Origin: Phycisphaerae bacterium
GTDB taxonomy: Bacteria; Planctomycetota; Phycisphaerae; Phycisphaerales; UBA1924
Direction of reading: 5' to 3'
Assembly (NCBI GenBank): GCA_030426395.1
Contig: JAUHYE010000024.1
Location: forward strand, 1 to 34,979
DNA length: 34,979 bases
Under the pieces are notes generated by a model, which was not told the DNA's origin, did no database searches, and saw nothing but the letters and a program-made list of their open reading frames with translations. Of the stretch, positions 33-13,767 are shown in pieces; within the stretch, counting starts at the first letter, position 1, and every line of letters begins with the position of its first letter. The position numbers and the translations under genes were made by a program.

Positions 33-122
33 ATGTTCGTGGGGGTCGGTGCGATGAAGAGCGGAACGACGTGGCTGGCCGATCGGCTCGATGGCCGAAA
101 ACCGGATGCCGAGGGGGCGTGA
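33..122 (+). pseudogene. Sulfotransferase-like N-terminal fragment, truncated
   Basis: Read in the frame that ends with TGA at 120-122, this stretch gives MFVGVGAMKSGTTWLADRL followed by ten residues and a stop. KSGTTWL is the 5'-phosphosulfate-binding loop that opens PAPS-dependent sulfotransferases, and a hydrophobic strand precedes it as in that family. A complete sulfotransferase needs over 200 further residues, and none appear in any frame here. The stop overlaps the kinase start (TGATG), so the fragment may be translated and coupled to the kinase. The frame stays open upstream to the window edge, so it could instead be the tail of another protein; in planctomycetes an ECF sigma factor often precedes such kinases. 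The motif is directly seen; the pseudogene reading is inference. Confidence 0.35.
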
Positions 123-2323
123 TGATGGACCCAGACCGGGGACCAACCCGCGTCCCGTTCGACGAGAAGGCCGTGTTCCTGGCGGCGCTCTCGATGGCCG
201 AGGCCGATCGCGAGCCCTTTCTCCAGGGGGCCTGCCCGGGAGAGGTCGAGCGAGCCCGGATGCGCACGCTGCTGTCGCGGCACGCCGAGACGACCTCGCA
301 GTTGCTCTCGCCCGGTCCGCACGCTTCGCCGATTCCCGAAGGCGAAGGCGAGGGCGAGGACATCGAACTCCCATTCCGGCTGGGCGACTTCGAGCTCCGC
401 CGCGAGATCGGGCGGGGCGGCATGGGCGTGGTGTATCTCGCTCGTGATCTGACGCTGCGTCGCGACGTCGCCGTCAAGATCCTCGATGCACGCTACGCCC
501 GATCGCCCCGATTCCTGGCCAGCTTCAAGCAGGAAGCGATCCACGCGTCGCAGCTCCAGCATCCGGCGATCGTGCCCGTCTACCTCTTCGGTTCCAGCAA
601 GGGAATCCGGTACATCGTGACGCCCTACATCGACGGGCGCACGCTCCGGCAGCACCTCGACGACGCCGCCCGTGCCCGGCCCAAGGGCAGCGCAGCCAGG
701 CAGTGGCACCAGGAGGTCGCCTCGACGCTCGCGATGGTGGCCGAGGCCCTCGAGCAGGCGCACGTGGCCGGCATCGTGCATCGGGACGTCAAGCCCTCGA
801 ACATCATGATCGACGGCTCGGGCAAGCCACACCTGCTGGACTTCGGCATCGCGATGCGAAGCGGGGACGAGACCTCCCTGCTGGCCGTGAGCCAGATGGG
901 CAGTTCGGCGTACGCGAGCCCCGAGCAGCGCCACGGCGGCCAGGTCGATGGGCGCAGCGACGTCTACTCGCTTGGTGTGGTGCTGTTCGAGGCCCTCGCC
1001 GGCAGGCTGCCGTTCGAGTCCGGAGCATCCGGCAACCAGGGTTCAAACTCAAAGCGAGAGGCCCCGTCTCTGCGGCGACTCGATCAGGCGATTCCCAGGG
1101 ATCTGGACGTCATCTGCCAGATGGCCCTGGCGGAATCGTCCACCGACCGCTACCAGAGCGCCGGTCACCTGGCGGCGGACCTGCGCGCCTGGCTGAACGA
1201 TCGGCCAATCCTGGCACGGCCCGAGCCGGCGTGGCGGCGGCTGCGACGCCGGTACCAGCGGCACCGCGTGGCCGCGGTCGCGCTCCTGGCCGCGTGCGTC
1301 GCGGTCGTGATCACCGGGACGGTGCTGGTGATGGTCAACGATCCGAGGCCCTCGGTCATCATCGTGGGCGTCGATCCCGATGTCCGCGTCTTCGTGCAGC
1401 CCCTGAGCGAGCCGTTCGCGACCCCCATGGGAGCGTCGAGCGGTGTCGGGCGGCGGTTCCGCGTCGAGGAAGGCCTGTACCGCGTGACGGTGATCGATTC
1501 CTCGGGCGCCTACGCCGAATTCTCACGCTGGCTCGGCGCGAACACGACGACCCGCCTGACCCCGAGGCTGCGGGCTGGCGACGCCGACGCCCAGACCATG
1601 GTGCTGTTCGATCCCGTCCAGTTCCCCGTCGACCCGTCGATCCGCGATGGGTACGCGCAGATCGCCTCGACCCTGACCGAGCCCTTCCTGCTCGACCGCT
1701 ACGAGGTCTCCAACGCCCAGTACGAGGCGTTCGTCCAGGACCCCACCACCGACGCCCCGCCGCCGCCGATCTGGGGTGGCCCGTCATGCCCGCCGCAGTG
1801 GCGCGACTGGCCGGTCGTGGGCATCACCTGGGGCGAGGCCCAGGCCTACGCCGAGTGGTGCGGTAAGCGGCTGCCGACCGCTCCGGAGTGGCTCTACGCG
1901 GCGCGTGGGCCGAAGGGGCGGCGGTACTCGACGGCCGAATCAGCTCCGGATCCATCATCGCTCGGTGTGACATTCCTGGTGATTCCTGGGTACGAGGAGA
2001 TTCGTACCGCGGCATATCGACCGGCAGGCTCCGATGAGGCCCGGACGATGTACCAGGCCGGTGCTCGGGCAGTCCATGACACGTCAACGCTCTCCCCCGA
2101 CCTCACTCCAGAAGGCGTTGCCAACCTCTTTGGCAATGTTCGTGAATGGACCGGCTCACGTCCACTGGATGAGGACGCGCTGGCGCCAGAGCGGCTGGTC
2201 CTTGGCCATTGCTGGGAAACACCGATCTCTGGGGGGGACGACCTCACGGCCATGCCGGAGCAGCCCATGGACGCTCGCATCGTTGGCATCGGGTTTCGCT
2301 GTGCGCGCAGCATCCCACGATGA
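122..2323 (+). CDS. Serine/threonine protein kinase with C-terminal FGE/SUMF1-like domain
   Basis: Membrane-anchored Hanks-type protein kinase of 733 residues. The kinase domain starts near residue 90 with glycine loop GRGGMGVVY (from G97), ATP lysine K119 in VAVKIL, catalytic loop HRDVKPSN (H220, D222) and DFG at D240. One membrane segment lies at about 383-405, so the kinase is cytoplasmic and the rest probably outside the membrane. The C-terminal part from about residue 520 is a formylglycine-generating-enzyme-like fold: YEVSNAQYEAF, GITWGEAQAYAEWCGKRLPT, NLFGNVREWTG and final GFRCARS. The closely spaced Cys pair of true FGE enzymes is not evident, so this domain is more likely a sensor or ligand-binding module. 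ATG at 122 overlaps the preceding stop; an in-frame start at 71 would lie inside the upstream fragment and is less likely. Substrates are unknown. Confidence 0.93.
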   Translation: MMDPDRGPTRVPFDEKAVFLAALSMAEADREPFLQGACPGEVERARMRTLLSRHAETTSQLLSPGPHASPIPEGEGEGEDIELPFRLGDFELRREIGRGGMGVVYLARDLTLRRDVAVKILDARYARSPRFLASFKQEAIHASQLQHPAIVPVYLFGSSKGIRYIVTPYIDGRTLRQHLDDAARARPKGSAARQWHQEVASTLAMVAEALEQAHVAGIVHRDVKPSNIMIDGSGKPHLLDFGIAMRSGDETSLLAVSQMGSSAYASPEQRHGGQVDGRSDVYSLGVVLFEALAGRLPFESGASGNQGSNSKREAPSLRRLDQAIPRDLDVICQMALAESSTDRYQSAGHLAADLRAWLNDRPILARPEPAWRRLRRRYQRHRVAAVALLAACVAVVITGTVLVMVNDPRPSVIIVGVDPDVRVFVQPLSEPFATPMGASSGVGRRFRVEEGLYRVTVIDSSGAYAEFSRWLGANTTTRLTPRLRAGDADAQTMVLFDPVQFPVDPSIRDGYAQIASTLTEPFLLDRYEVSNAQYEAFVQDPTTDAPPPPIWGGPSCPPQWRDWPVVGITWGEAQAYAEWCGKRLPTAPEWLYAARGPKGRRYSTAESAPDPSSLGVTFLVIPGYEEIRTAAYRPAGSDEARTMYQAGARAVHDTSTLSPDLTPEGVANLFGNVREWTGSRPLDEDALAPERLVLGHCWETPISGGDDLTAMPEQPMDARIVGIGFRCARSIPR

Positions 2324-4447: not shown

Positions 4448-5641
4448 CTACCGAACCTTCTGCGGGAACTTCTCACGGACCTTCTTGATCTTGGGCGCCG
4501 CCACGTTGCAGATGTAGGGCTGGTCGGGGTTCAGCTCGGCGTAGTTCTGGTGGTAGTCCTCGGCCACCTGGAAGCCGTTGAGTGGTTCCAGTGTGGTCAC
4601 GATCGGGCTCTTGAACTCGCCACTGGCTTCGAGGTCCTTGATGAACGCGGCGGCGGCCTTCTTCTCCTGGTCGTTGGCGAAGAAGATGGCGCTGCGGTAG
4701 TGCGTGCCTACGTCGGCGCCCTGGCGGTTGAGCGTGGTCGGGTCGTGCGTGGCGAAGTGGACCTCGAGCAGGGCCTCGTAGCTGATCACCTTGGGGTCGT
4801 ACACGATGCGCACGGTCTCGGCATGGCCGGTGGCGCCGGTGTAGACCTGCTTATAGGTCACCGGCAGGGTCTCGGGGTTCTCGTGGCCACCGGTGTATCC
4901 GCTCGTGACGTCGTACACGCCCTTGAGTTGCTCGAACACGCCCTCGACGCACCAGAAGCAGCCACCAGCAAAGTAGGCGACGGCGACCTCGCCCAGGCTC
5001 TTCACGTCTTCGGCCTCGGTGAACATAAGGCTCTCGCTGTTCACGCAGAAGCGCATGCCCGTCGGCTCGGGGCCATCGTTAAAGACGTGGCCCAGGTGGC
5101 CGTCGCAGCGGGCGCAGAGGATCTCGGTACGGACCATGCCAAAACTGGTGTCCTGCTCGATGTTGATATTCTCGGTGGCCACGGGCTTGAAGAAGCTGGG
5201 CCAGCCGGTGCCGCTGGTGAACTTGGCGTCGCTGGCGAAGAGCGGCAAGGCACAGCCGGCGCACGCGTACACGCCGTCCTTCTTGTTGTCCAGCAGCGTG
5301 CCGCAGAAGGCGGCCTCGGTGCCGGCCTTGCGGAGGATGCGAAAGGCTTCCGGGCTCAAGCGTTCTTCCCACTGGGAATCGGTCAGTTCGAGGCGTGGGA
5401 GCGGCATCGGGCCGACGAGACTGCCGTTGAAGTCGAAGACCTTGAGCGGCGTCGTAGCGGCGTGCCTGGATTCAGAAGTGGTCGAATCGGTGGTGGTCAT
5501 CGCGGAACCCTCGGCTGGAGTCTGCTGGCTCGTAAATGGTATCGGACGCAGCACGCTGGCAACGGCCATGGTGGCGGCTATGAGGGCGATCGTGACGATC
5601 GAGGCGGCACGGACGAGGGCGGGTCGGGTTCCCATGGGCAT
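4448..5641 (-). CDS. msrBA: Fused peptide methionine sulfoxide reductase MsrB-MsrA, exported
   Basis: Repairs oxidised methionine: the MsrB half reduces the R-sulfoxide and the MsrA half the S-sulfoxide. The 397-residue protein starts with a hydrophobic segment (about 11-30) that should act as a signal sequence or anchor, placing it in the cell envelope. MsrB occupies about 85-205, with zinc cysteines CAGC (127-130) and CARC (176-179) and the catalytic cysteine in RFCVNS (C199). MsrA follows at about 220-380, with the active site GCFWC (C228) and the YHQNY segment. The order B-A is the reverse of several well-known A-B fusions. Two near ATGs (MPMG) are both served by a GGAGG about four or ten bases upstream. 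The next minus-strand gene upstream is the Old Yellow Enzyme, also a redox enzyme. Confidence 0.95.
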   Translation of the reverse strand: MPMGTRPALVRAASIVTIALIAATMAVASVLRPIPFTSQQTPAEGSAMTTTDSTTSESRHAATTPLKVFDFNGSLVGPMPLPRLELTDSQWEERLSPEAFRILRKAGTEAAFCGTLLDNKKDGVYACAGCALPLFASDAKFTSGTGWPSFFKPVATENINIEQDTSFGMVRTEILCARCDGHLGHVFNDGPEPTGMRFCVNSESLMFTEAEDVKSLGEVAVAYFAGGCFWCVEGVFEQLKGVYDVTSGYTGGHENPETLPVTYKQVYTGATGHAETVRIVYDPKVISYEALLEVHFATHDPTTLNRQGADVGTHYRSAIFFANDQEKKAAAAFIKDLEASGEFKSPIVTTLEPLNGFQVAEDYHQNYAELNPDQPYICNVAAPKIKKVREKFPQKVR

Positions 5642-5760
5642 AAGTCCTCCGGCAGGTAGTCCGACTCATTGGTCGCGTAGCGGCGGCGTTCCTTGCATCG
5701 CACGAACACCCGTTCCATCGTGAGTATTCGCAGCGCCCTTTCCGTCGCCCCGGATTCCCG

Positions 5761-6891
5761 TCAGTCGAGTGGGGGATACGTCGTGTAGCCCTCGGCCCCA
5801 CCGCCGTAGAAGGTGTCGCGATCCCACTCGTTCAACGGCGCGTCGCGGCGGAATCGCTCGGCCAGGTCGGGATTGCTGATGAAGGGCTTGCCGAATGCGA
5901 TGGCATCGGCCTTGTCGGTGGCAATCCGTTGGGCGGCGGTCTCGGCGGTGTACTCGCCATTGCCGACGTACGCGTGGCCGCCGGCGTCGCGGAAGGCGCT
6001 GCGGATGGCGGCGAACACGGGCTCGTTCTCGTCGCTGCGCGTGGCGCTGCCGAACTCTTCCACGACGTGGATGTACGCCAGGCCCAGCTTGCCGAGTTCG
6101 GCCGCAAGGTACGAGTAGGTGTCGATCGGCCGGTCTTGAGGATTGTCGGATGCCTCGCCCAGTGGGCTCACGCGATAGCCCACCTTGCCGGGCTCCCACA
6201 CGGTGAGCACGGCCTCGGCAACTTCGAGGCAGAATCGGGCCCGATTCTCGAGCGATCCTCCATACTGGTCGGTGCGTGTGTTCGAAGCGCTGCGTAGGAA
6301 CTGCTGCAAGAGGTAGCCGTTGGCGCCGTGGATCTCCACGCCGTCGAACCCCGCATCTTTGGCATTCTGGGCGGCTTGGCGGAACTGCTCGACGACGCCG
6401 GGGATCTCGTCGGTCTCGAGGGCGCGCGGCTCGCTCGTCGGCACGAGGCCGCTGTCCTTGCTGGTGTATGTCTTGCTTTCCGCCCTGATGGCCGAGGGGG
6501 CGACGGGCTTGCCACCGCCCGGTTGCAGGTCCGTGTGGCTGATGCGGCCGACGTGCCAGAGCTGGGCGAGGATGATGCCGCCCTTGTCGTGCACAGCCTT
6601 GGTCACCAACTTCCAGCCCTCGACCTGCTCTTTGCTGTGGATGCCGGGCGTGAAGGCGTAGCCCTTGCCTTGCGAGCTCACCTGGGTGGCCTCGCTGATG
6701 ATGACGGCGGCGCCCTTCTTCGGGTCGGCTCGTTGGCCGTAGTACTCGGCGTTGAGCTCCCACGGGACATCCCCGGGCTGCTTGCTGCGACTGCGGGTGA
6801 GCGGGGCCATCCAGACGCGCGTGGCGGCGTGGATCTGGCCGGCGGTGAGTGGCTTGAGGAGGTCGGCGAGGTTGGTGTCGAGGGTTGTCAT
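5761..6891 (-). CDS. NADH:flavin oxidoreductase / Old Yellow Enzyme family (NemA-like)
   Basis: FMN-dependent ene-reductase of 376 residues, the usual length for the NemA/OYE class, expected to reduce activated C=C bonds or nitro groups with NAD(P)H in the cytoplasm. Visible family signatures are VWMAPLTRSRS near residue 27, AQLWHVGRISH near 109-119, substrate-anion pair H188 and N191 in EIHGANGYLLQQFL, RTDQYGGSLENRARF, and the C-terminal phosphate-binding part DAIAFGKPFISNPDLAERFR. I chose ATG 6891 (MTTLDTNLADLLKPL) because the 30 residues upstream in the frame do not resemble the family. The physiological substrate is not deducible. The start region is divergent from the trp operon, and a pair of 8-bp direct repeats lies just upstream. 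Confidence 0.92.
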   Translation of the reverse strand: MTTLDTNLADLLKPLTAGQIHAATRVWMAPLTRSRSKQPGDVPWELNAEYYGQRADPKKGAAVIISEATQVSSQGKGYAFTPGIHSKEQVEGWKLVTKAVHDKGGIILAQLWHVGRISHTDLQPGGGKPVAPSAIRAESKTYTSKDSGLVPTSEPRALETDEIPGVVEQFRQAAQNAKDAGFDGVEIHGANGYLLQQFLRSASNTRTDQYGGSLENRARFCLEVAEAVLTVWEPGKVGYRVSPLGEASDNPQDRPIDTYSYLAAELGKLGLAYIHVVEEFGSATRSDENEPVFAAIRSAFRDAGGHAYVGNGEYTAETAAQRIATDKADAIAFGKPFISNPDLAERFRRDAPLNEWDRDTFYGGGAEGYTTYPPLD

Positions 6892-6901
6892 GATTGGAGC
6901 A

Positions 6902-6930
6902 TGATTCCCCGAAGCCGCGGGGTGATTCCC
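6902..6930. promoter_or_regulatory. Paired direct repeats TGATTCCC, 21 bp apart
   Basis: TGATTCCC occurs at 6902-6909 and again at 6923-6930, exactly 21 bp (two helical turns) apart and 11 bp upstream of the Old Yellow Enzyme start. Between them a short stem CCCCG/CGGGG (6907-6911 with 6918-6922) can form. The geometry fits a regulator binding one DNA face. No known operator is recognised. The rest of 6931-7010 shows nothing further that I can name. Confidence 0.3.
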
Positions 6931-7010
6931 GAGAAAGGGGCGACATAGAGAAACTCCCCATCGGACGGCCGATATCCGCATCGTGCCTCGCCTTGTCTTG
7001 CCTATGGGCC

Positions 7011-7039
7011 TTGACGGGGAGCGTCCCGGATGGCATAAT
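7011..7039 (+). promoter_or_regulatory. Sigma70-type promoter of the trp operon
   Basis: TTGACG at 7011-7016 and CATAAT at 7034-7039 are separated by exactly 17 bp, one mismatch each from the classical -35 and -10 boxes. Transcription would start near 7045-7047, almost at the ATG of the leader ORF and about 240 nt before trpE. That long leader is what an attenuator requires. Confidence 0.7.
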
Positions 7040-7047
7040 GGGCCTTA

Positions 7048-7167
7048 ATGAGCACCGCCGCCTCCAAACCCGTCCTGCCCGGCAACCGCAAATGCGGCTG
7101 GCTGTGGCGTTGGCAAACGGGGCGTGGTGCTCTTGGTGTTGTGATTACGGGCTGGCGTTCCGCCTAG
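7048..7167 (+). CDS. Candidate trp operon leader peptide (TrpL-like), 39 aa
   Basis: Small ORF between the promoter and trpE. Residues 16-24 read CGWLWRWQT, with Trp codons at 7099, 7105 and 7111 and a fourth at 7153; four Trp in 39 residues is far above normal usage. Leader peptides with clustered Trp codons control trp operons by ribosome stalling when charged tRNA-Trp is scarce. The ORF starts at the only in-frame ATG (TAA upstream at 7036) and ends with TAG at 7165-7167, inside a hairpin at 7149-7170. No Shine-Dalgarno is visible and the predicted transcript begins within three bases of the ATG, so translation would be leaderless. Composition, position and RNA context agree; function is inferred. 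Confidence 0.6.
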   Translation: MSTAASKPVLPGNRKCGWLWRWQTGRGALGVVITGWRSA

Positions 7168-7270
7168 CCCCCACCAACACCCCCGCACGCCGCGCCACGG
7201 GACACCTCACCGGGGCGGCGTGGCTGAACCCCCTCGGATGAGTCGATACACAGTCGACCAGCCACCGAGG
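7121..7270 (+). promoter_or_regulatory. Putative trp attenuator: alternative hairpins and RBS-masking stem
   Basis: CACGCC(GC) at 7186-7193 can pair either with GGCGTG at 7121-7126, just after the Trp codons, or with GCGGCGTG at 7215-7222 (8 bp, perfect). The two choices exclude each other like the 2:3 and 3:4 arms of a classical attenuator. A separate stem, GGGCT-GGCG (7149-7157) with CGCC-T-AGCCC (7161-7170), covers the leader stop. Nearer trpE, CCTCGG (7232-7237) pairs with CCGAGG (7265-7270), enclosing GTCGA/TCGAC (7242-7246, 7254-7258), and would mask the GAGG ribosome-binding site of trpE. There is no U-tract, so control could be translational or Rho-assisted. Confidence 0.45.
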
Positions 7271-7283
7271 AAGCCGTTCGGCC

Positions 7284-8702
7284 ATGCAATCTCCATTCGA
7301 CATCCCAGCCGACCTCGACACGCCGGTGTCGGCGTATCGCAAGCTGGCGGCCTTCAAGCCGTGCTTCCTACTGGAATCGGCCGAGAGCGGCACGCGGCTG
7401 GCCCGGTACTCGTTCATCGGGCTCGACCCCGCGTTCACGGCCCGGCTGCCCGCCGATGGCTCGCCGCTGACGATCAGGACCGAAGCCGGCATTGAAGAGG
7501 CTCCCGCCCCCACGGACTCAGCTGGCTATCTGGCGATGCTTCGGGAGCTACGCGATCGGGCGCCATCGCTGGGCCCGGTGCCCGCGGGCGTGCCATTCGC
7601 GGGCGGCATTGTCGGGGTGAGCGGCTACGACGCGGTGCGGTTCTTCGAGCCGCTCCCAGCACCCGACGGCCGCGAAGCATGCTCACCGATAGCCTTGTAT
7701 TGCGCTCCGCGGAGCGTGCTGATCTTCGACCACCTCACTCGGCGGATGGCCCTGCTGCACGCCGGCGAGGAATGGGAGCGCGAATCCCTCAAGCGCGAAA
7801 TGATGCACGCGATGCGCGGGGCCCACCCGCCCGAGCCGGTGCGCAGCGGCCACTCGCCGGCCAGCCACAGCATGACCCGGGACGAGTTCGTCGACCGAGT
7901 GGCCTCGGCCAAGGAAGACATTTACAACGGTGAGGTGTTCCAGCTCGTGCTGAGTATCCAGAGCACGGGCGAGGTGCACACCGAGCCGTTCCAGGTCTAT
8001 CGGGCGCTGCGGATGCTCAATCCCTCGGCGTACATGTACTTCCTCGACATCGAGGGCGTGCGTGTCGTGGGCGCCTCGCCCGAGGCGTTGTTCCGATGCC
8101 AGGGTGGCCACGCCATGCTCCGCCCCATCGCCGGCACGCGCAAGCGGGGGGAGAACGAGGACCGCGATCGAGAACTCGAAGCCGAATTGATCGCCGACCC
8201 CAAAGAAGCCGCCGAGCACGTCATGCTCGTCGACCTGGCCCGCAACGACCTGGGCCGCGTGGCAAAGCCGGGCACGATCCGCGTCGACCCCTTCCGCGTA
8301 GTCGAGCGATACTCGCACGTGATGCACCTGGTCAGCGGCGTGCGGGGCGTGCTCGACGAAGGGGCCGACGCGATGGACCTGATGGCCGCGTCGTTCCCCG
8401 CCGGTACGCTGGTGGGCACACCCAAGGTCCGGGCCATGCAGCTCATCGACGGGTACGAGCCCGTCGACCGCGGCTTCTACGCCGGCGCGGTGGGCTACTT
8501 CGCCAAGCCAAGGAATGGTGAGTTGGCCAGCGCCGACAAGGCCATCTGCATCCGCACGCTCGTATTCGAGAACGGCCGGTACGCCTACCAAGCCGGTGCG
8601 GGCATCGTAGCCGATTCGGTGCCCGAAGCCGAGTACCAGGAGGTGCGATCGAAGGTCGCCGTGCTCGAGAAGGCGCTCGAACTCGCCGAAGGGGGGTGGT
8701 GA
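7284..8702 (+). CDS. trpE: Anthranilate synthase component I
   Basis: Catalyses the first committed step of tryptophan synthesis, chorismate plus ammonia or glutamine to anthranilate, together with TrpG. Length 472 residues is usual for TrpE. The N-terminal LLES motif (CFLLESAESG, about 30) with RYSFIG marks the tryptophan feedback site. The chorismate-binding half shows PSAYMYFLD, GASPEALFR, RPIAGTRKRG, LVDLARNDLGRV, FPAGTLVGTPK and YAYQAGAGIVADS. The start ATG 7284 has GAGGAAG ten bases upstream, inside a predicted stem. It is the first gene of a seven-gene operon and is followed by trpG after one base. Expression is probably controlled by the upstream leader and activity by feedback inhibition. 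Confidence 0.97.
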   Translation: MQSPFDIPADLDTPVSAYRKLAAFKPCFLLESAESGTRLARYSFIGLDPAFTARLPADGSPLTIRTEAGIEEAPAPTDSAGYLAMLRELRDRAPSLGPVPAGVPFAGGIVGVSGYDAVRFFEPLPAPDGREACSPIALYCAPRSVLIFDHLTRRMALLHAGEEWERESLKREMMHAMRGAHPPEPVRSGHSPASHSMTRDEFVDRVASAKEDIYNGEVFQLVLSIQSTGEVHTEPFQVYRALRMLNPSAYMYFLDIEGVRVVGASPEALFRCQGGHAMLRPIAGTRKRGENEDRDRELEAELIADPKEAAEHVMLVDLARNDLGRVAKPGTIRVDPFRVVERYSHVMHLVSGVRGVLDEGADAMDLMAASFPAGTLVGTPKVRAMQLIDGYEPVDRGFYAGAVGYFAKPRNGELASADKAICIRTLVFENGRYAYQAGAGIVADSVPEAEYQEVRSKVAVLEKALELAEGGW

Positions 8703-8703
8703 G

Positions 8704-9342
8704 ATGCCGCGGGTGCTGATGATCGACAACTACGACTCGTTCACGTTCAACCTGGTGCAGTACATGCGCGAGCTCGGCGCCGAGGTGCTTACCTACCGCA
8801 ACGACACCCTGACCATCGACCAGGCACGATCGCTTGAGCCGACCCACATGATGATCTCACCCGGCCCGGGCAGGCCGCAGGACGCCGGCATGACCATGCC
8901 GATGATCGAGGCGTTTGCAGAACAACTGCCGATCCTGGGAGTTTGCCTTGGATTCCAGGCGATTGCAGCGATCTGGGGCGCGCCGATTCGCCACGCGGCG
9001 TGCCTCATGCACGGCAAGCCCTCGGACATCGAGCATGACGAGCAAGGCGTGTATGCGGGTGTGCCACAGCGGACGCCGGTCGGGCGGTACCACTCGCTTG
9101 GTGTGCACGAAGCCGAACTCCACGCCGATCTCATCCCAACCTCGCGCGACGTCGACGGCGGCGAGCTCATGGGCCTCCGGCATCGCACGCTGCCGATCGA
9201 GGCCGTGCAGTTCCATCCCGAGAGTGTGCTCACACCCTGGGGCGGCCGAATGGTGGCGAACTTCCTGGGCATCACCGATCGCAACGTGAGGCCACCCTAC
9301 CCGACGCGCGTGTACGTGCCCACGGCGGATGTCAGGTCATGA
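8704..9342 (+). CDS. trpG: Anthranilate synthase component II (glutamine amidotransferase)
   Basis: Supplies ammonia from glutamine to TrpE. The protein is a class I glutamine amidotransferase of 212 residues with N-terminal MIDNYDSFTFNLVQY, oxyanion loop SPGPGRPQDAG, nucleophile C81 in GVCLGFQAIA, and the His/Glu of the triad, H171 and E173, in VQFHPESVLTP. It starts one base after trpE stops (TGAGATG) and its own stop overlaps the trpD start by four bases (ATGA), so stoichiometric, coupled translation is likely. A role as PabA for folate synthesis as well is possible, because I see no second copy in this window; that is speculative. Confidence 0.97.
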   Translation: MPRVLMIDNYDSFTFNLVQYMRELGAEVLTYRNDTLTIDQARSLEPTHMMISPGPGRPQDAGMTMPMIEAFAEQLPILGVCLGFQAIAAIWGAPIRHAACLMHGKPSDIEHDEQGVYAGVPQRTPVGRYHSLGVHEAELHADLIPTSRDVDGGELMGLRHRTLPIEAVQFHPESVLTPWGGRMVANFLGITDRNVRPPYPTRVYVPTADVRS

Positions 9343-10364
9343 GCTTCGATGCCCGCCAGGCTCTCGAGACGATGCTCGCAGGGCAGCCCCTCGATACTGC
9401 TGCGGCCGAAGCGATGGCCCACGACTTGGCCAGTGAAGCCGTCGAGCCGGCGATGGCCGGTGCGTTGCTGGCGGCGTTGCGGAGCAAGGGCGAGTCGGCC
9501 GACGAGGTCCGCGGATTGGCCAATGGCCTGCGGGCATTGGCAACAAAGCCCGAATTCGACACACCCCCCACCGCCTGCGACATAGTCGGTACCGGCGGCG
9601 ACGGCAGCAACAGCTACAACATTTCGACCGGTGCAGCACTCCTGGCCGCGGCTGCCGGAGCCACCGTCGTCAAGCACGGCAACCGATCGATCAGCTCGAA
9701 GTCGGGGGCGGCCGATTTGCTATCGGCACTTGGTATCCGTGTGCCGATGTCCGATCCGGGCCGCGCATTGAGCGAGCTAGGGTTCGTCTATCTCCATGCT
9801 CCCGCGTATCACCCGGCGATGGCGAAGATCGCACCCATCCGCAAGGCCATGGGCGTTCGCACCGTATTTAACATTCTCGGGCCACTCACCAACCCAGCCG
9901 CGCCGAAGTTCGCTGTGATCGGGGCATACTCAGCCGAGATGGCCGAACTGATGGCCAACGCCTTGGCGGGCATGGCCATTGAGCGGGCACTCGTGGTCCA
10001 CGGCGAGCCGGGATGGGACGAAGCGACGCCCGTTGGACCATTCCTGTTGTTCGACGTGCGGCCGGGTGATGTGCAACACGGCACCCGCGATCCGGCCGGC
10101 GTTGGGATCGCTCGGTGTACGCCTGATGACCTCAGGGGCGGCACGCCGGAAGAGAATGCCGATGCCCTGCGACGGGTGCTCAGCGGCGAAGACACCGGAC
10201 CTCACAGAGACGCCCTACTGCTCACGGCGGCTTTGGCCTTGGAGGTCGCGGGCAACGTACCCGACATGAAGGCAGGGGTGTCAAGAGCCGCCGCCGCGAT
10301 CGAGGATGGCAGAGCGACTCGTCTGCTCGATGCCCTGGCCGGGATGGTGCGTCGTGACGCCTGA
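9339..10364 (+). CDS. trpD: Anthranilate phosphoribosyltransferase
   Basis: Transfers phosphoribosyl from PRPP to anthranilate, the second step of the pathway. The 341-residue length matches stand-alone TrpD. Diagnostic segments are the PRPP loop GTGGDGSNSYNIST near residue 85, KHGNRSISSKSGAADLLSALG, and FNILGPLTNPA. The ATG overlaps the trpG stop (ATGA). The 3' end overlaps the trpC start by 11 bases. Tight overlaps on both sides show it belongs to one polycistronic unit. Cytoplasmic enzyme; nothing unusual in its key motifs. Confidence 0.97.
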   Translation: MSFDARQALETMLAGQPLDTAAAEAMAHDLASEAVEPAMAGALLAALRSKGESADEVRGLANGLRALATKPEFDTPPTACDIVGTGGDGSNSYNISTGAALLAAAAGATVVKHGNRSISSKSGAADLLSALGIRVPMSDPGRALSELGFVYLHAPAYHPAMAKIAPIRKAMGVRTVFNILGPLTNPAAPKFAVIGAYSAEMAELMANALAGMAIERALVVHGEPGWDEATPVGPFLLFDVRPGDVQHGTRDPAGVGIARCTPDDLRGGTPEENADALRRVLSGEDTGPHRDALLLTAALALEVAGNVPDMKAGVSRAAAAIEDGRATRLLDALAGMVRRDA

Positions 10365-11163
10365 ACGGGACTTCCTACGGACGATGGCAGAGTCATCGCG
10401 AGCGCGTGCCAATGCAGCCATAGCGGAGGTTTCGCTTGCCGAAATACGAAAGCTCGCCATCGATTCACGCTCACCAAGGCCGATCCTACTCGACCGATTC
10501 GACCTCATCGCCGAGGTGAAGCGAGCAAGCCCAAGCCAGGGCGCACTCGCATCCGCTGATGCCGACATCGTGGCACAGGCTCATGCGTACGCCCAAGCCG
10601 GGGCGGCCATGATCTCGGTGCTGACCGAGCCGTCGCGGTTTGGGGGGAGCCCCGGGGACATCCGTGCCATTTCGGCATCAGTGAATCAGCCGGTGATGCG
10701 GAAGGACTTTCTCGTTGATCCCCATCAGGTGTACGAAGCCCGGGCGTGGGGCGCGTCGGCTGTGCTCCTGATCGCACGGTTGCTCGATGATGGGCTGCTT
10801 GGGCAATTGCTCGATGCCTCCGAAGAAATCGGCTTGGCGGTGTTGCTCGAAGCATTCGATGCCGAAGATTTGCGACGATCAGTCCGGGCCATTCAGAATC
10901 GCTCAAACGTGCTCTTGGGCCTGAACTGCCGGGATCTGGCGACGCTCAAGGAAAACACCTCTAGCTTCGAGGAACTCACGAGTGAATTTCCCGAGGGAGC
11001 AATCCGTATCGCCGAATCGGGGATCGTAACCGCCGACGATGCGGCATCGGTTGCTCGGCTGGGCTATGACGGCGCGCTCGTCGGCACCGCTTTGATGCGA
11101 TCGCATGATCCGGTTTCCCTCGCCCGATCGATGATCCAGGCAGGGAGGGTGGCCCGTGCCTGA
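10354..11163 (+). CDS. trpC: Indole-3-glycerol-phosphate synthase
   Basis: Closes the indole ring, converting CdRP to indole-3-glycerol phosphate. I chose GTG 10354 (269 residues), which overlaps the trpD stop by 11 bases, because the first helix DFLRTMAESSRARANAAIAE fits the family N-terminus; ATG 10384 would cut into it. Visible active-site strands are IAEVKRASPSQG, VMRKDFLVDPHQVYEARAWGASAVLLI, VLLEAFD, GLNCRDLATLKEN and IAESGI. The usual NNRDL reads NCRDL here, a substitution of the second Asn. It is a separate gene, not fused to trpF as in enterobacteria. Its last eight bases overlap trpF. Confidence 0.95.
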   Translation: MTPERDFLRTMAESSRARANAAIAEVSLAEIRKLAIDSRSPRPILLDRFDLIAEVKRASPSQGALASADADIVAQAHAYAQAGAAMISVLTEPSRFGGSPGDIRAISASVNQPVMRKDFLVDPHQVYEARAWGASAVLLIARLLDDGLLGQLLDASEEIGLAVLLEAFDAEDLRRSVRAIQNRSNVLLGLNCRDLATLKENTSSFEELTSEFPEGAIRIAESGIVTADDAASVARLGYDGALVGTALMRSHDPVSLARSMIQAGRVARA

Positions 11164-11773
11164 TCGCGTCCGAATCAAGATCTGCGGTTTCACGACACCT
11201 GAGATGGTTGAGGCGGCCATCGACGCGGGCGTGGACGCTGTTGGCGTCGTGATGAGCCCTTCGAAGCGGCAGGTAACACCCCAACGTGCGGCCGAGCTGA
11301 TTGGCGAGTTACCCGGCTATATCGCGGGCGTTGCCGTGTACCGGCACCCCAATACCGAGTTGGTTGCGCAGGCACTCGACGCCCTCCCCGCGTGGACGCT
11401 ACACCAGTCCGATTCCAGCGACTTCACCGGCGCGCTATCCGCCGTGCCAAGTAATCGCAGCATCCCAGTTGTCCGCCTCGGTGATTCATTCCAGCAACAC
11501 ATCGCAAAGCACCAAGGCCGCATGGTGCTCATCGAAGGCCAGAATTCCGGGACGGGCACGCCCGCGCCCTGGCACGAGGCCGCGCCGTGGATATCCCGCT
11601 GCCGCGCGATCATCGCTGGGGGCTTGGACATCGGCAATGTCGCGGAAGTTGTCCGCATGCTCCGGCCGTTCGCCGTGGACGTATCCTCGGGCGTCGAGCG
11701 CGAGCCGGGAGTCAAGGACGCGGGCATGATCCGCGAGTTCGTCGCGGCGGTGAGAGAAGGGGAGCGGGCATGA
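11156..11773 (+). CDS. trpF: Phosphoribosylanthranilate isomerase
   Basis: Isomerises phosphoribosylanthranilate to CdRP, the step before TrpC. Length 205 residues. The catalytic cysteine is in KICGFTT near the N-terminus, DAVGVVMSPSKRQV follows, and the phosphate-binding end reads IIAGGLDIGNV and VDVSSGVEREPGVKD, which supplies the catalytic Asp. The central strand normally reading QLHG reads TLHQ here, a mild departure. It starts with GTG 11156, overlapping trpC by eight bases, and its stop overlaps the trpB ATG (ATGA at 11770-11773). Confidence 0.93.
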   Translation: MPDRVRIKICGFTTPEMVEAAIDAGVDAVGVVMSPSKRQVTPQRAAELIGELPGYIAGVAVYRHPNTELVAQALDALPAWTLHQSDSSDFTGALSAVPSNRSIPVVRLGDSFQQHIAKHQGRMVLIEGQNSGTGTPAPWHEAAPWISRCRAIIAGGLDIGNVAEVVRMLRPFAVDVSSGVEREPGVKDAGMIREFVAAVREGERA

Positions 11774-12999
11774 GCGCCGACACACACATTCTGCTCCGCC
11801 AACTCATCGATGGCAAGCTGCCCGACGAGCACGGCTTCTTCGGCCCCTTCGGCGGTCGCTTCGTGCCCGAGACGCTGGTGCCCGCGCTCGAGCGCTTCGA
11901 GCGCGGCGCCCGTGACGCGCTCCAGGACGGGGCCTTCAAGACCGAGCTGCGCCAGCACCAGGAGACCTGGATCGGCCGGCCGACGCCCTTGATGTATGCG
12001 CCGCGCCTGAGCGAATCGTGGAAAGCCCATGTGTGGCTGAAGCGCGAGGATCTCGCTCACACCGGGGCCCACAAGATCAATAACGCACTCGGGCAGGCGC
12101 TGATCGCCAAGCGGATCGGGGCCCAGCACGTCGTCGCCGAGACGGGCGCGGGCCAGCACGGCGTGGCGACGGCCGCCGCGTGCGCCCGCGTTGGTCTTCC
12201 GGCAATCGTGTACATGGGCGCGAAGGACGTGGAGAGACAGGCCCCCAACGTCGTGCGCATGCGGCGCATGGGCGCGGAGGTTAGGCCCGTCACCGCCGGC
12301 GACGCGACGCTGCGGGCGGCCGTCGATGAGGCCATCCGGCACTGGGTGGGCGACCCGCAGGGCACGCACTACATCCTCGGCAGCGCCGTGGGGCCCCACC
12401 CGTTCCCCTGGATCGTGCGCGAGTTCCAGAAGGTCATCGGCGTGGAATCGCGAACGCAGATGCTCGAGCAGGCGTGGAAATTACCCGACATCGCCGTCGC
12501 GTGCGTGGGAGGGGGCTCCAACGCCATCGGCTTCTTTCATGGGTTCCTGGGCGATGCCCACGTCGAGCTGCACGGCGCGGAGGCGGGCGGGATTGGCCCG
12601 GCCGTGGGCCAGCACGCGGCGACCATGTCGGGCGGCACGCCGGGCGTGCTGCACGGCGCTCGTTCCATGCTCTTGCAGGATGGCGACGGCCAGGTGAGCA
12701 ACACGCACTCGGTGTCGGCGGGGCTGGATTACCCGGCCATCGGCCCCGAGCACGCGCTGCTCGCGCACGTTGGGCGCGTGAAGTACCACGCCGTGCGCGA
12801 CGACGAGGCCATCACCGCCCTCGACGAGCTGTGCCGGCTCGAGGGCATCCTGCCCGCCGCCGAGCCCGCCCATGCTCTTGCTCTTGCCAAGCGGCTCTGC
12901 GAAGGCCGCGACGACCCCACCGTGCTGGTCAACGTGTGCGGCCGTGGCGACAAGGACATGCCGATCCTAACGCGGCTGGCCGAGCAGGAGGGCCAGTAA
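11770..12999 (+). CDS. trpB: Tryptophan synthase beta subunit
   Basis: PLP enzyme that joins indole and serine to make tryptophan, working as the alpha2-beta2 complex with TrpA. The protein is 409 residues, the length of ordinary TrpB1 that pairs with TrpA. K102 in TGAHKINNALGQA is the PLP lysine. Other conserved stretches are FGPFGGRFVPETL, AETGAGQHGVATA, YMGAKDVERQAPNV, the phosphate loop VGGGSNAIG, EAGGIGPAVG, and HSVSAGLDYPAIGPEH. Start ATG overlaps the trpF stop. trpA begins three bases after the stop. Confidence 0.97.
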   Translation: MSADTHILLRQLIDGKLPDEHGFFGPFGGRFVPETLVPALERFERGARDALQDGAFKTELRQHQETWIGRPTPLMYAPRLSESWKAHVWLKREDLAHTGAHKINNALGQALIAKRIGAQHVVAETGAGQHGVATAAACARVGLPAIVYMGAKDVERQAPNVVRMRRMGAEVRPVTAGDATLRAAVDEAIRHWVGDPQGTHYILGSAVGPHPFPWIVREFQKVIGVESRTQMLEQAWKLPDIAVACVGGGSNAIGFFHGFLGDAHVELHGAEAGGIGPAVGQHAATMSGGTPGVLHGARSMLLQDGDGQVSNTHSVSAGLDYPAIGPEHALLAHVGRVKYHAVRDDEAITALDELCRLEGILPAAEPAHALALAKRLCEGRDDPTVLVNVCGRGDKDMPILTRLAEQEGQ

Positions 13000-13002
13000 G
13001 CC

Positions 13003-13767
13003 ATGCGCGCGCACGAGATTATCTCGAAGGCGATCACAGACGGCCGCGAAGCGCACGGAGTCGCCCTGGTCGCGTACGTCACGGCCGGTTTTCCAAGCAT
13101 GGACGCCTTCCCCACCATCCTCGCCGACGCCTGCGTGCACGCGGACGTCGTGGAGGTTGGCATCCCCTTCAGCAACCCCATCGCCGACGGCGGCTCGCTG
13201 CAGGAGACCGCCCGCCAGGCGCTCAAGGGCGGGGCGACCATGCACAAAATCATGCACGTCCTGCGCGAGCTCGATGGCACGCTGGCCGCCCCGCTGCTGC
13301 TGATGGGATACTTGAACCCGCTGCTGGCCTACGGGCTGGATCGGCTGGCGGGCGACGCACAGGCCGCCGGCGTGCACGGCGTGATCGTGCCCGACTTACC
13401 GCTCGAAGCGATCGACATGGCTCGGTCCCTCACCGACGCCGGTCTGGCGACGATCGGCATGGTCAGCCCCGTCACCAGCGACGAGCGGCTGAAGCGCATC
13501 GCCGAACGCGCGAGCGGCTTCGTCTACGCCGTCACGAGCGTGGGCGTCACGGGCCAGCAGCGGTCCGACCAGTCACAGATTACCGGCTACCTCCAGAAGG
13601 TCAGATCCGCCGCGACCATCCCCGTGTGCGCCGGCTTCGGCATCCGCTCGAAGCAGCACGTCGACGCCCTACGCGGCGCGTGCGACGGCGTGATCGTGGG
13701 CTCGGCACTCATGGAGGCGGTGGGCGAGGGGCGGGCCATCGGGCCGATCCTGCAAGGCCTGCGCTGA
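13003..13767 (+). CDS. trpA: Tryptophan synthase alpha subunit
   Basis: Cleaves indole-3-glycerol phosphate and passes indole through the tunnel to TrpB. Length 254 residues. The catalytic Glu is E51 in VEVGIPFSNP and the catalytic Asp D62 in ADGG; the family pattern is SDP...ADGP, so S-N-P and D-G-G-S are unusual neighbours of intact catalytic residues. VAYVTAGFPS, LLLMGYLNPLLAYG, GVIVPDLPLE, GFVYAVTSVGVTGQ and AGFGIRSKQHV are all typical. It is the last trp gene. The next gene starts 33 bases later, and no terminator is visible between them, so read-through is possible. Confidence 0.96.
   Translation: MRAHEIISKAITDGREAHGVALVAYVTAGFPSMDAFPTILADACVHADVVEVGIPFSNPIADGGSLQETARQALKGGATMHKIMHVLRELDGTLAAPLLLMGYLNPLLAYGLDRLAGDAQAAGVHGVIVPDLPLEAIDMARSLTDAGLATIGMVSPVTSDERLKRIAERASGFVYAVTSVGVTGQQRSDQSQITGYLQKVRSAATIPVCAGFGIRSKQHVDALRGACDGVIVGSALMEAVGEGRAIGPILQGLR

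Follow-up and report, generated by a model that had tools for sequence, protein, structure and literature searches.

A Trp-rich, probably leaderless leader ORF ahead of a planctomycete trp operon, and its possible readout at the trpE start

Does a short ORF rich in Trp codons, lying ahead of the trp operon of a Phycisphaerae bacterium, regulate that operon, and through which readout would it do so? The DNA in question is a stretch of 34,979 nucleotides (assembly GCA_030426395.1, contig JAUHYE010000024.1), which as a whole we call the window. An earlier reading of its letters alone (the sequence-only reading) had proposed ribosome-mediated attenuation by a leaderless leader peptide. Here we compare the locus with its relatives, and find a conserved leader that very probably has a Trp-responsive function, together with a readout in the window's genus that appears to differ from the one predicted for most relatives.

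The leader ORF, its promoter and the operon behind it

Translation bears out an ORF of 39 codons plus stop at 7048-7167 on the forward strand (trpL; translation MSTAASKPVLPGNRKCGWLWRWQTGRGALGVVITGWRSA), with the four Trp codons that had been read at 7099, 7105, 7111 and 7153. The first three form the W-L-W-R-W cluster (7099-7113, forward strand), the putative regulatory codons, which are near-invariant within the genus; all leaders considered below carry a Trp cluster. The fourth codon is unconserved, being absent from the closest relative (L003). The promoter proposed ahead of the ORF is likewise in place. A promoter scan of 6800-7400 returns a single promoter-like site (0.1 expected), a sigma-70-type TTGACG-17-CATAAT at 7011-7039 on the forward strand, TTGACG starting at 7011 and CATAAT ending at 7039, and the same geometry relative to the leader start is found in most relatives. 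The A of the trpL ATG (7048) is the ninth base past the -10 box. The exact pattern TTGAC-(16-18)-NATAAT-(5-9)-ATG occurs at two sites in the 3.49-Mb genome, one of which is trpL; the other, L127 (G000:C176:5049-5088), opens a 4-codon ORF (MSKF).

To place the promoter in the relatives, the first in-frame ATG met on going upstream from the Trp cluster was taken as the start codon (GTG in one locus), and -10 boxes were scanned over 3-59 nt. In this unbiased scan the best -10 box falls 6-10 nt ahead of the start codon in 25 of the 30 leader loci, and TTGAC lies 30-41 nt ahead of it in 21/30 (0.2 expected). No Shine-Dalgarno sequence is visible by eye ahead of the trpL start in the short upstream space of the leader loci. 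The position of the -10 box thus gives good support to the earlier suggestion of a leaderless leader peptide, and points to a leader that is probably leaderless in the whole TrpE lineage of the window (type A, described below).

Predicted folds add two hairpins within the leader. One spans the trpL stop codon (7149-7170, forward strand; MFE folds), and a similarly placed hairpin is predicted in relatives of the genus. The other, a small CCGC-AAAU-GCGG hairpin at 7086-7113, has a 3' arm that reaches into the first Trp codon; the folds predicted for the genus show it again (the equivalents in L003-L006), and it may serve as an RNA polymerase pause hairpin. Several MFE folds also paired the leader 5' end with the stretch past the Trp codons (1:2), but this pairing was no better than in shuffles and was rejected.

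The operon downstream has the order that had been read from the sequence, trpE, G, D, C, F, B, A. The type-A trpE, first gene of trpEGDCFBA, occupies 7284-8702, and trpG, trpD, trpC, trpF, trpB and trpA occupy 8704-13767, all on the forward strand, with starts at 7284 (trpE), 8704 (trpG), 9339 (trpD), 10306 (trpC), 11156 (trpF) and 13003 (trpA) and a trpB ORF at 11587-12999. About 13 nt separate the trpE AUG from a Shine-Dalgarno-like GAGGA. In every related locus checked, trpE is followed by trpG, and nearly all of them also yielded trpD. Neither TRAP (PF02081) nor TrpR (PF01371) is encoded by any of six genomes searched, and the positive controls were found. On the other side of trpL lies a divergent gene (5666-6892, reverse strand) with no Pfam or NCBIfam match. 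The genus's other four type-A genomes have it upstream of trpE too; near trpE in the remaining loci checked it was undetected.

Conservation of the leader and distribution of its TrpE lineage

The TrpE of the window belongs to a lineage that we call type A. A search of 163 family genomes found it, at 58% identity or more, in 17, from 10 genera; most other family members carry a different TrpE (type B) at about 43% identity. Class and phylum samples yielded six further type-A loci at 48-55% identity, and among named genomes a scan picked up TrpE at 52-58% identity in MAGs that mostly bear the label Gammaproteobacteria or Proteobacteria, with one Acidimicrobiia, taxon labels that can be wrong where they rest on single contigs. 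The TrpE tree unites type A in a single clade (support 0.97), from which the type-B enzymes of this family and order stand apart, so that horizontal transfer would be the simplest reading of its distribution. The leader does stand ahead of a planctomycete trp operon, as the sequence-only reading had it, but it is no general planctomycete trait: it follows a minority TrpE lineage (those 17 family genomes) that is common to other phyla. Two of the seven genomes of the window's genus (G127 and G137) are without type-A trpE. Since G137 has the other TrpE type (L032, 45% identity) and G127 gave no TrpE match at E 1e-40, trpE appears to have been swapped or lost inside a single genus.

A short ORF with clustered Trp codons is present in 30/34 loci of the type-A lineage: in 13 of the 16 readable family loci, in all six others of the phylum and in 11 of the 12 named loci outside it. 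The set of 30 leaders was chosen by the Trp cluster itself, and the fair count is therefore 30/34; shuffles would give about 2.3 Trp-clustered ORFs in 30 loci by chance. Conservation of the cluster in relatives had been named beforehand as the observation on which the proposal could fail, and it speaks in the proposal's favour. Among type-B TrpE loci of the order, a Trp-clustered ORF occurs in 2/21 (0.8 expected), and there is no clear leader among these 21 loci.

The cluster itself varies in form, reading WLWRW and WWWRW in the window's genus, WWWR in the MAGs labelled Gammaproteobacteria, and WWRP, WWWHA, WWYP, WRWW, WRGWWWR, WCWW, WAWSWR, WRWRR or WQWW in other relatives. The block GGCTGG.TGTGGCGTTGG hardly changes across the genus's five genomes, in contrast to the remaining leader, which diverges. 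Three loci (L007, L013 and L016) have a type-A TrpE and the trpE-G-D order, yet no recognisable Trp leader, and are apparent losses of the attenuator.

Terminators in relatives and hairpins before trpE in the genus

Between leader and trpE, 23 of the 30 leader-bearing loci have a hairpin with a U tract behind it. In most of these 23, a segment 5-17 nt past the last Trp codon complements the 5' arm of the terminator (z -1.6 to -5.4), as in the pairing of GGAGUGGGC with GACCCAUCUCC. To judge from their sequences, these terminator-bearing loci, most with a predicted antiterminator, are cases of textbook terminator/antiterminator attenuation.

The U-tract terminator was found in none of the five type-A genomes of the window's genus, nor in L008 and L009. 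The genus forms a clade with L007 and L008 in the TrpE tree (support 0.97), and no member of this clade has a terminator. Antiterminator complementarity in the genus, measured against shuffles, gives z of -0.6, 0.3, -0.8, -0.8 and -2.0, the last in L006. The site of the relatives' terminator is occupied in the window by a hairpin without a U tract (P2; 7187-7221, forward strand). In the leader regions that were searched, no Rfam family, Trp_leader and T-box included, matched at E up to 1, and sub-threshold hits there are meaningless. Because the window lacks a terminator and its antiterminator is unclear, we do not file it as a transcription attenuator. Ribosome-mediated attenuation, as first proposed for this locus, thus holds in part: the conserved Trp-clustered leader and the full attenuator anatomy of relatives favour it, but the classical form is not supported for the window itself, whose genus has no U-tract terminator.

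What the genus has instead of a U tract before trpE is another hairpin, P3 (7222-7283, forward strand), which ends directly before the trpE AUG and whose outer stem pairs 7222-7229 with 7276-7283. Its folding energy against shuffles gives z of -4.9 in the window and -4.4, -5.5, -3.3 and -1.8 in the other four genomes of the genus. Ten other gene starts of the window served as controls, and their z never falls below -1.9. The fifth genome carries a shorter version. In the four sequences that were aligned, 97.5% of the cells are paired, as against no more than 51% after sliding; a double compensatory change (G-C to U-A) occurs once, and changes in the outer stem preserve pairing in all but one cell. 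The covariation score of P3 was reached by 118/500 shuffles, four aligned sequences being too small a depth for a firm claim.

Equilibrium folds computed with a ribosome sitting on the Trp codons or on the stop codon showed no change of consistent direction in the occupancy of the trpE AUG. Similarly, no alternative partner for the P3 3' arm was found at equilibrium, and no conserved antisequestor was demonstrated in the genus. Because equilibrium folding shows no opening of P3 on stalling, the opening step is one that we infer, as is ribosome stalling itself. A short relay pairing that would compete with P3 (GUGGCUG:CAGCCAC) is put forward as an idea only.

A proposed mechanism, its rivals and related systems

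These observations can be assembled into a mechanism in which transcription would start at, or 1-2 bases from, the AUG at 7048, yielding a leaderless mRNA with trpL as its first ORF. The ribosome on trpL would gauge charged tRNA-Trp at WLWRW, proceeding to the stop codon when Trp is ample and stalling when it is scarce, and its position would determine the downstream RNA fold and through it the expression of trpEGDCFBA. In most type-A relatives the readout would be the intrinsic terminator/antiterminator; in the window's genus, where the terminator seems to be gone, it would likely be access to the trpE start codon that P3 abuts. The best-supported part of this mechanism is the Trp-responsive function of the leader, in which our confidence is high. 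We place moderate confidence in the mechanism taken whole, that is, in ribosome-stalling attenuation whose output in the genus has moved from transcription termination to trpE translation via P3. The window's element would work like a trp leader-peptide attenuator and, to judge by synteny and the TrpE phylogeny, probably descends from one. Whether a trp attenuator with a leaderless peptide spreads between phyla with one TrpE lineage, one planctomycete clade having swapped its output from termination to trpE translation initiation with the sensor kept, we regard as an even call.

The sensor might also work while its output remains transcription, a reading that we consider rather unlikely but worth weighing. 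Here the U-less P2 (7187-7221) would terminate, or Rho would act between trpL and trpE once the leader ribosome is gone, and P3 would be accessory. Such an output would leave the strong conserved hairpin at the trpE AUG unexplained, and it has to contend with the lack of a U tract in all five genomes of the genus and with antiterminator complementarity that is mostly no better there than in shuffles. It gains from the position of P2, which is that of the relatives' terminator, from the use of transcription termination by those relatives, and from the L001 locus, where P2 has to compete, in the stalled state, with a pairing past the Trp codons. For the cys operons of Mycobacterium, moreover, leader peptides that lack a terminator and are suspected to depend on Rho have been proposed (PMC1262725). 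For the genus, we favour control of trpE translation through P3 over termination by P2 or Rho.

It is improbable that trpL has ceased to sense Trp after loss of the terminator and persists as a translational enhancer that feeds ribosomes to trpE, or as a decaying relic. The distance from the trpL stop to trpE, 116 nt, can be read both ways, as it holds no obvious terminator but is long for reinitiation. Three loci of the same TrpE lineage (L007, L013 and L016) have indeed lost a recognisable leader; in the genus, however, the Trp block stays near-invariant in five genomes while other leader parts diverge, and the promoter geometry is kept. Comparison effectively refutes the reading of the ORF as a chance product of GC-rich intergenic sequence. 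Shuffled GC-rich DNA does yield short ORFs rich in TGG at a low rate: when the 390-nt intergenic region is shuffled by dinucleotides, 0.33% of the shuffles contain an ATG-started ORF of 8-60 codons with three Trp in five residues. But the same feature at the same place and promoter distance in 30/34 loci, most with terminator and antiterminator, makes a chance origin untenable.

A leaderless trp leader is known experimentally from Sinorhizobium meliloti, in which the attenuated RNA begins with the trpL AUG (PMC7298713). The trpL of S. meliloti trpE(G) (rnTrpL/peTrpL) resembles the leader predicted here in being a leaderless trp leader peptide, and in attenuation without transcriptional repression. 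It differs in that its peptide has 14 aa and stands before trpE(G) in an alphaproteobacterium, whereas in the window's genus a U-tract terminator is lacking and a hairpin abuts the trpE AUG. The enterobacterial and Corynebacterium/Streptomyces trp attenuators also place Trp codons, in tandem or clustered, in a short ORF before trpE, and the window's relatives share their terminator and antiterminator; unlike these classical systems, the window's genus has no terminator, a predicted leaderless start and no Rfam match. In Actinobacteria, both leader peptides without terminators and start-sequestering switches have been described (PMC1262725). There the cys leaders, the LEU element (leuA) and translational T-boxes (ileS) offer parallels, as a regulatory-codon ORF without a terminator or as a hairpin sequestering the region in which the first gene starts (PMC1262725). 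These systems concern other amino acids and another phylum; ileS has a T-box and no leader peptide, and in leuA the regulatory codons are themselves one side of the stem, opposite the Shine-Dalgarno box.

Our search of the open-access literature found no described case of trp attenuation or of leaderless transcripts in Planctomycetes. If the proposed mechanism is true, ribosome-sensed amino-acid attenuation would extend to this phylum, leaderless leader peptides would be the norm for one TrpE lineage across phyla, and a single family would display a switch of readout in evolution. This family offers a natural series, from a terminator, through a start hairpin without a terminator, to no leader, which suits tests of how a regulatory RNA changes its output while the sensor stays.

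Elsewhere in the window, a single ORF at 71-2323 (forward strand) encodes a protein kinase domain followed by a sulfatase-modifying-factor (FGE) domain, and another at 4448-5641 (reverse strand) combines SelR and PMSR domains as a fused methionine sulfoxide reductase B-A. The site of a Planctomycetes 16S probe had no match in six genomes, although MAGs can be without a 16S gene and some members may differ from the probe. An HX9DG prepilin motif, which none of 14 control genomes has, was found, and we take it to be consistent with a bacterium of the Planctomycetes-Verrucomicrobia group.
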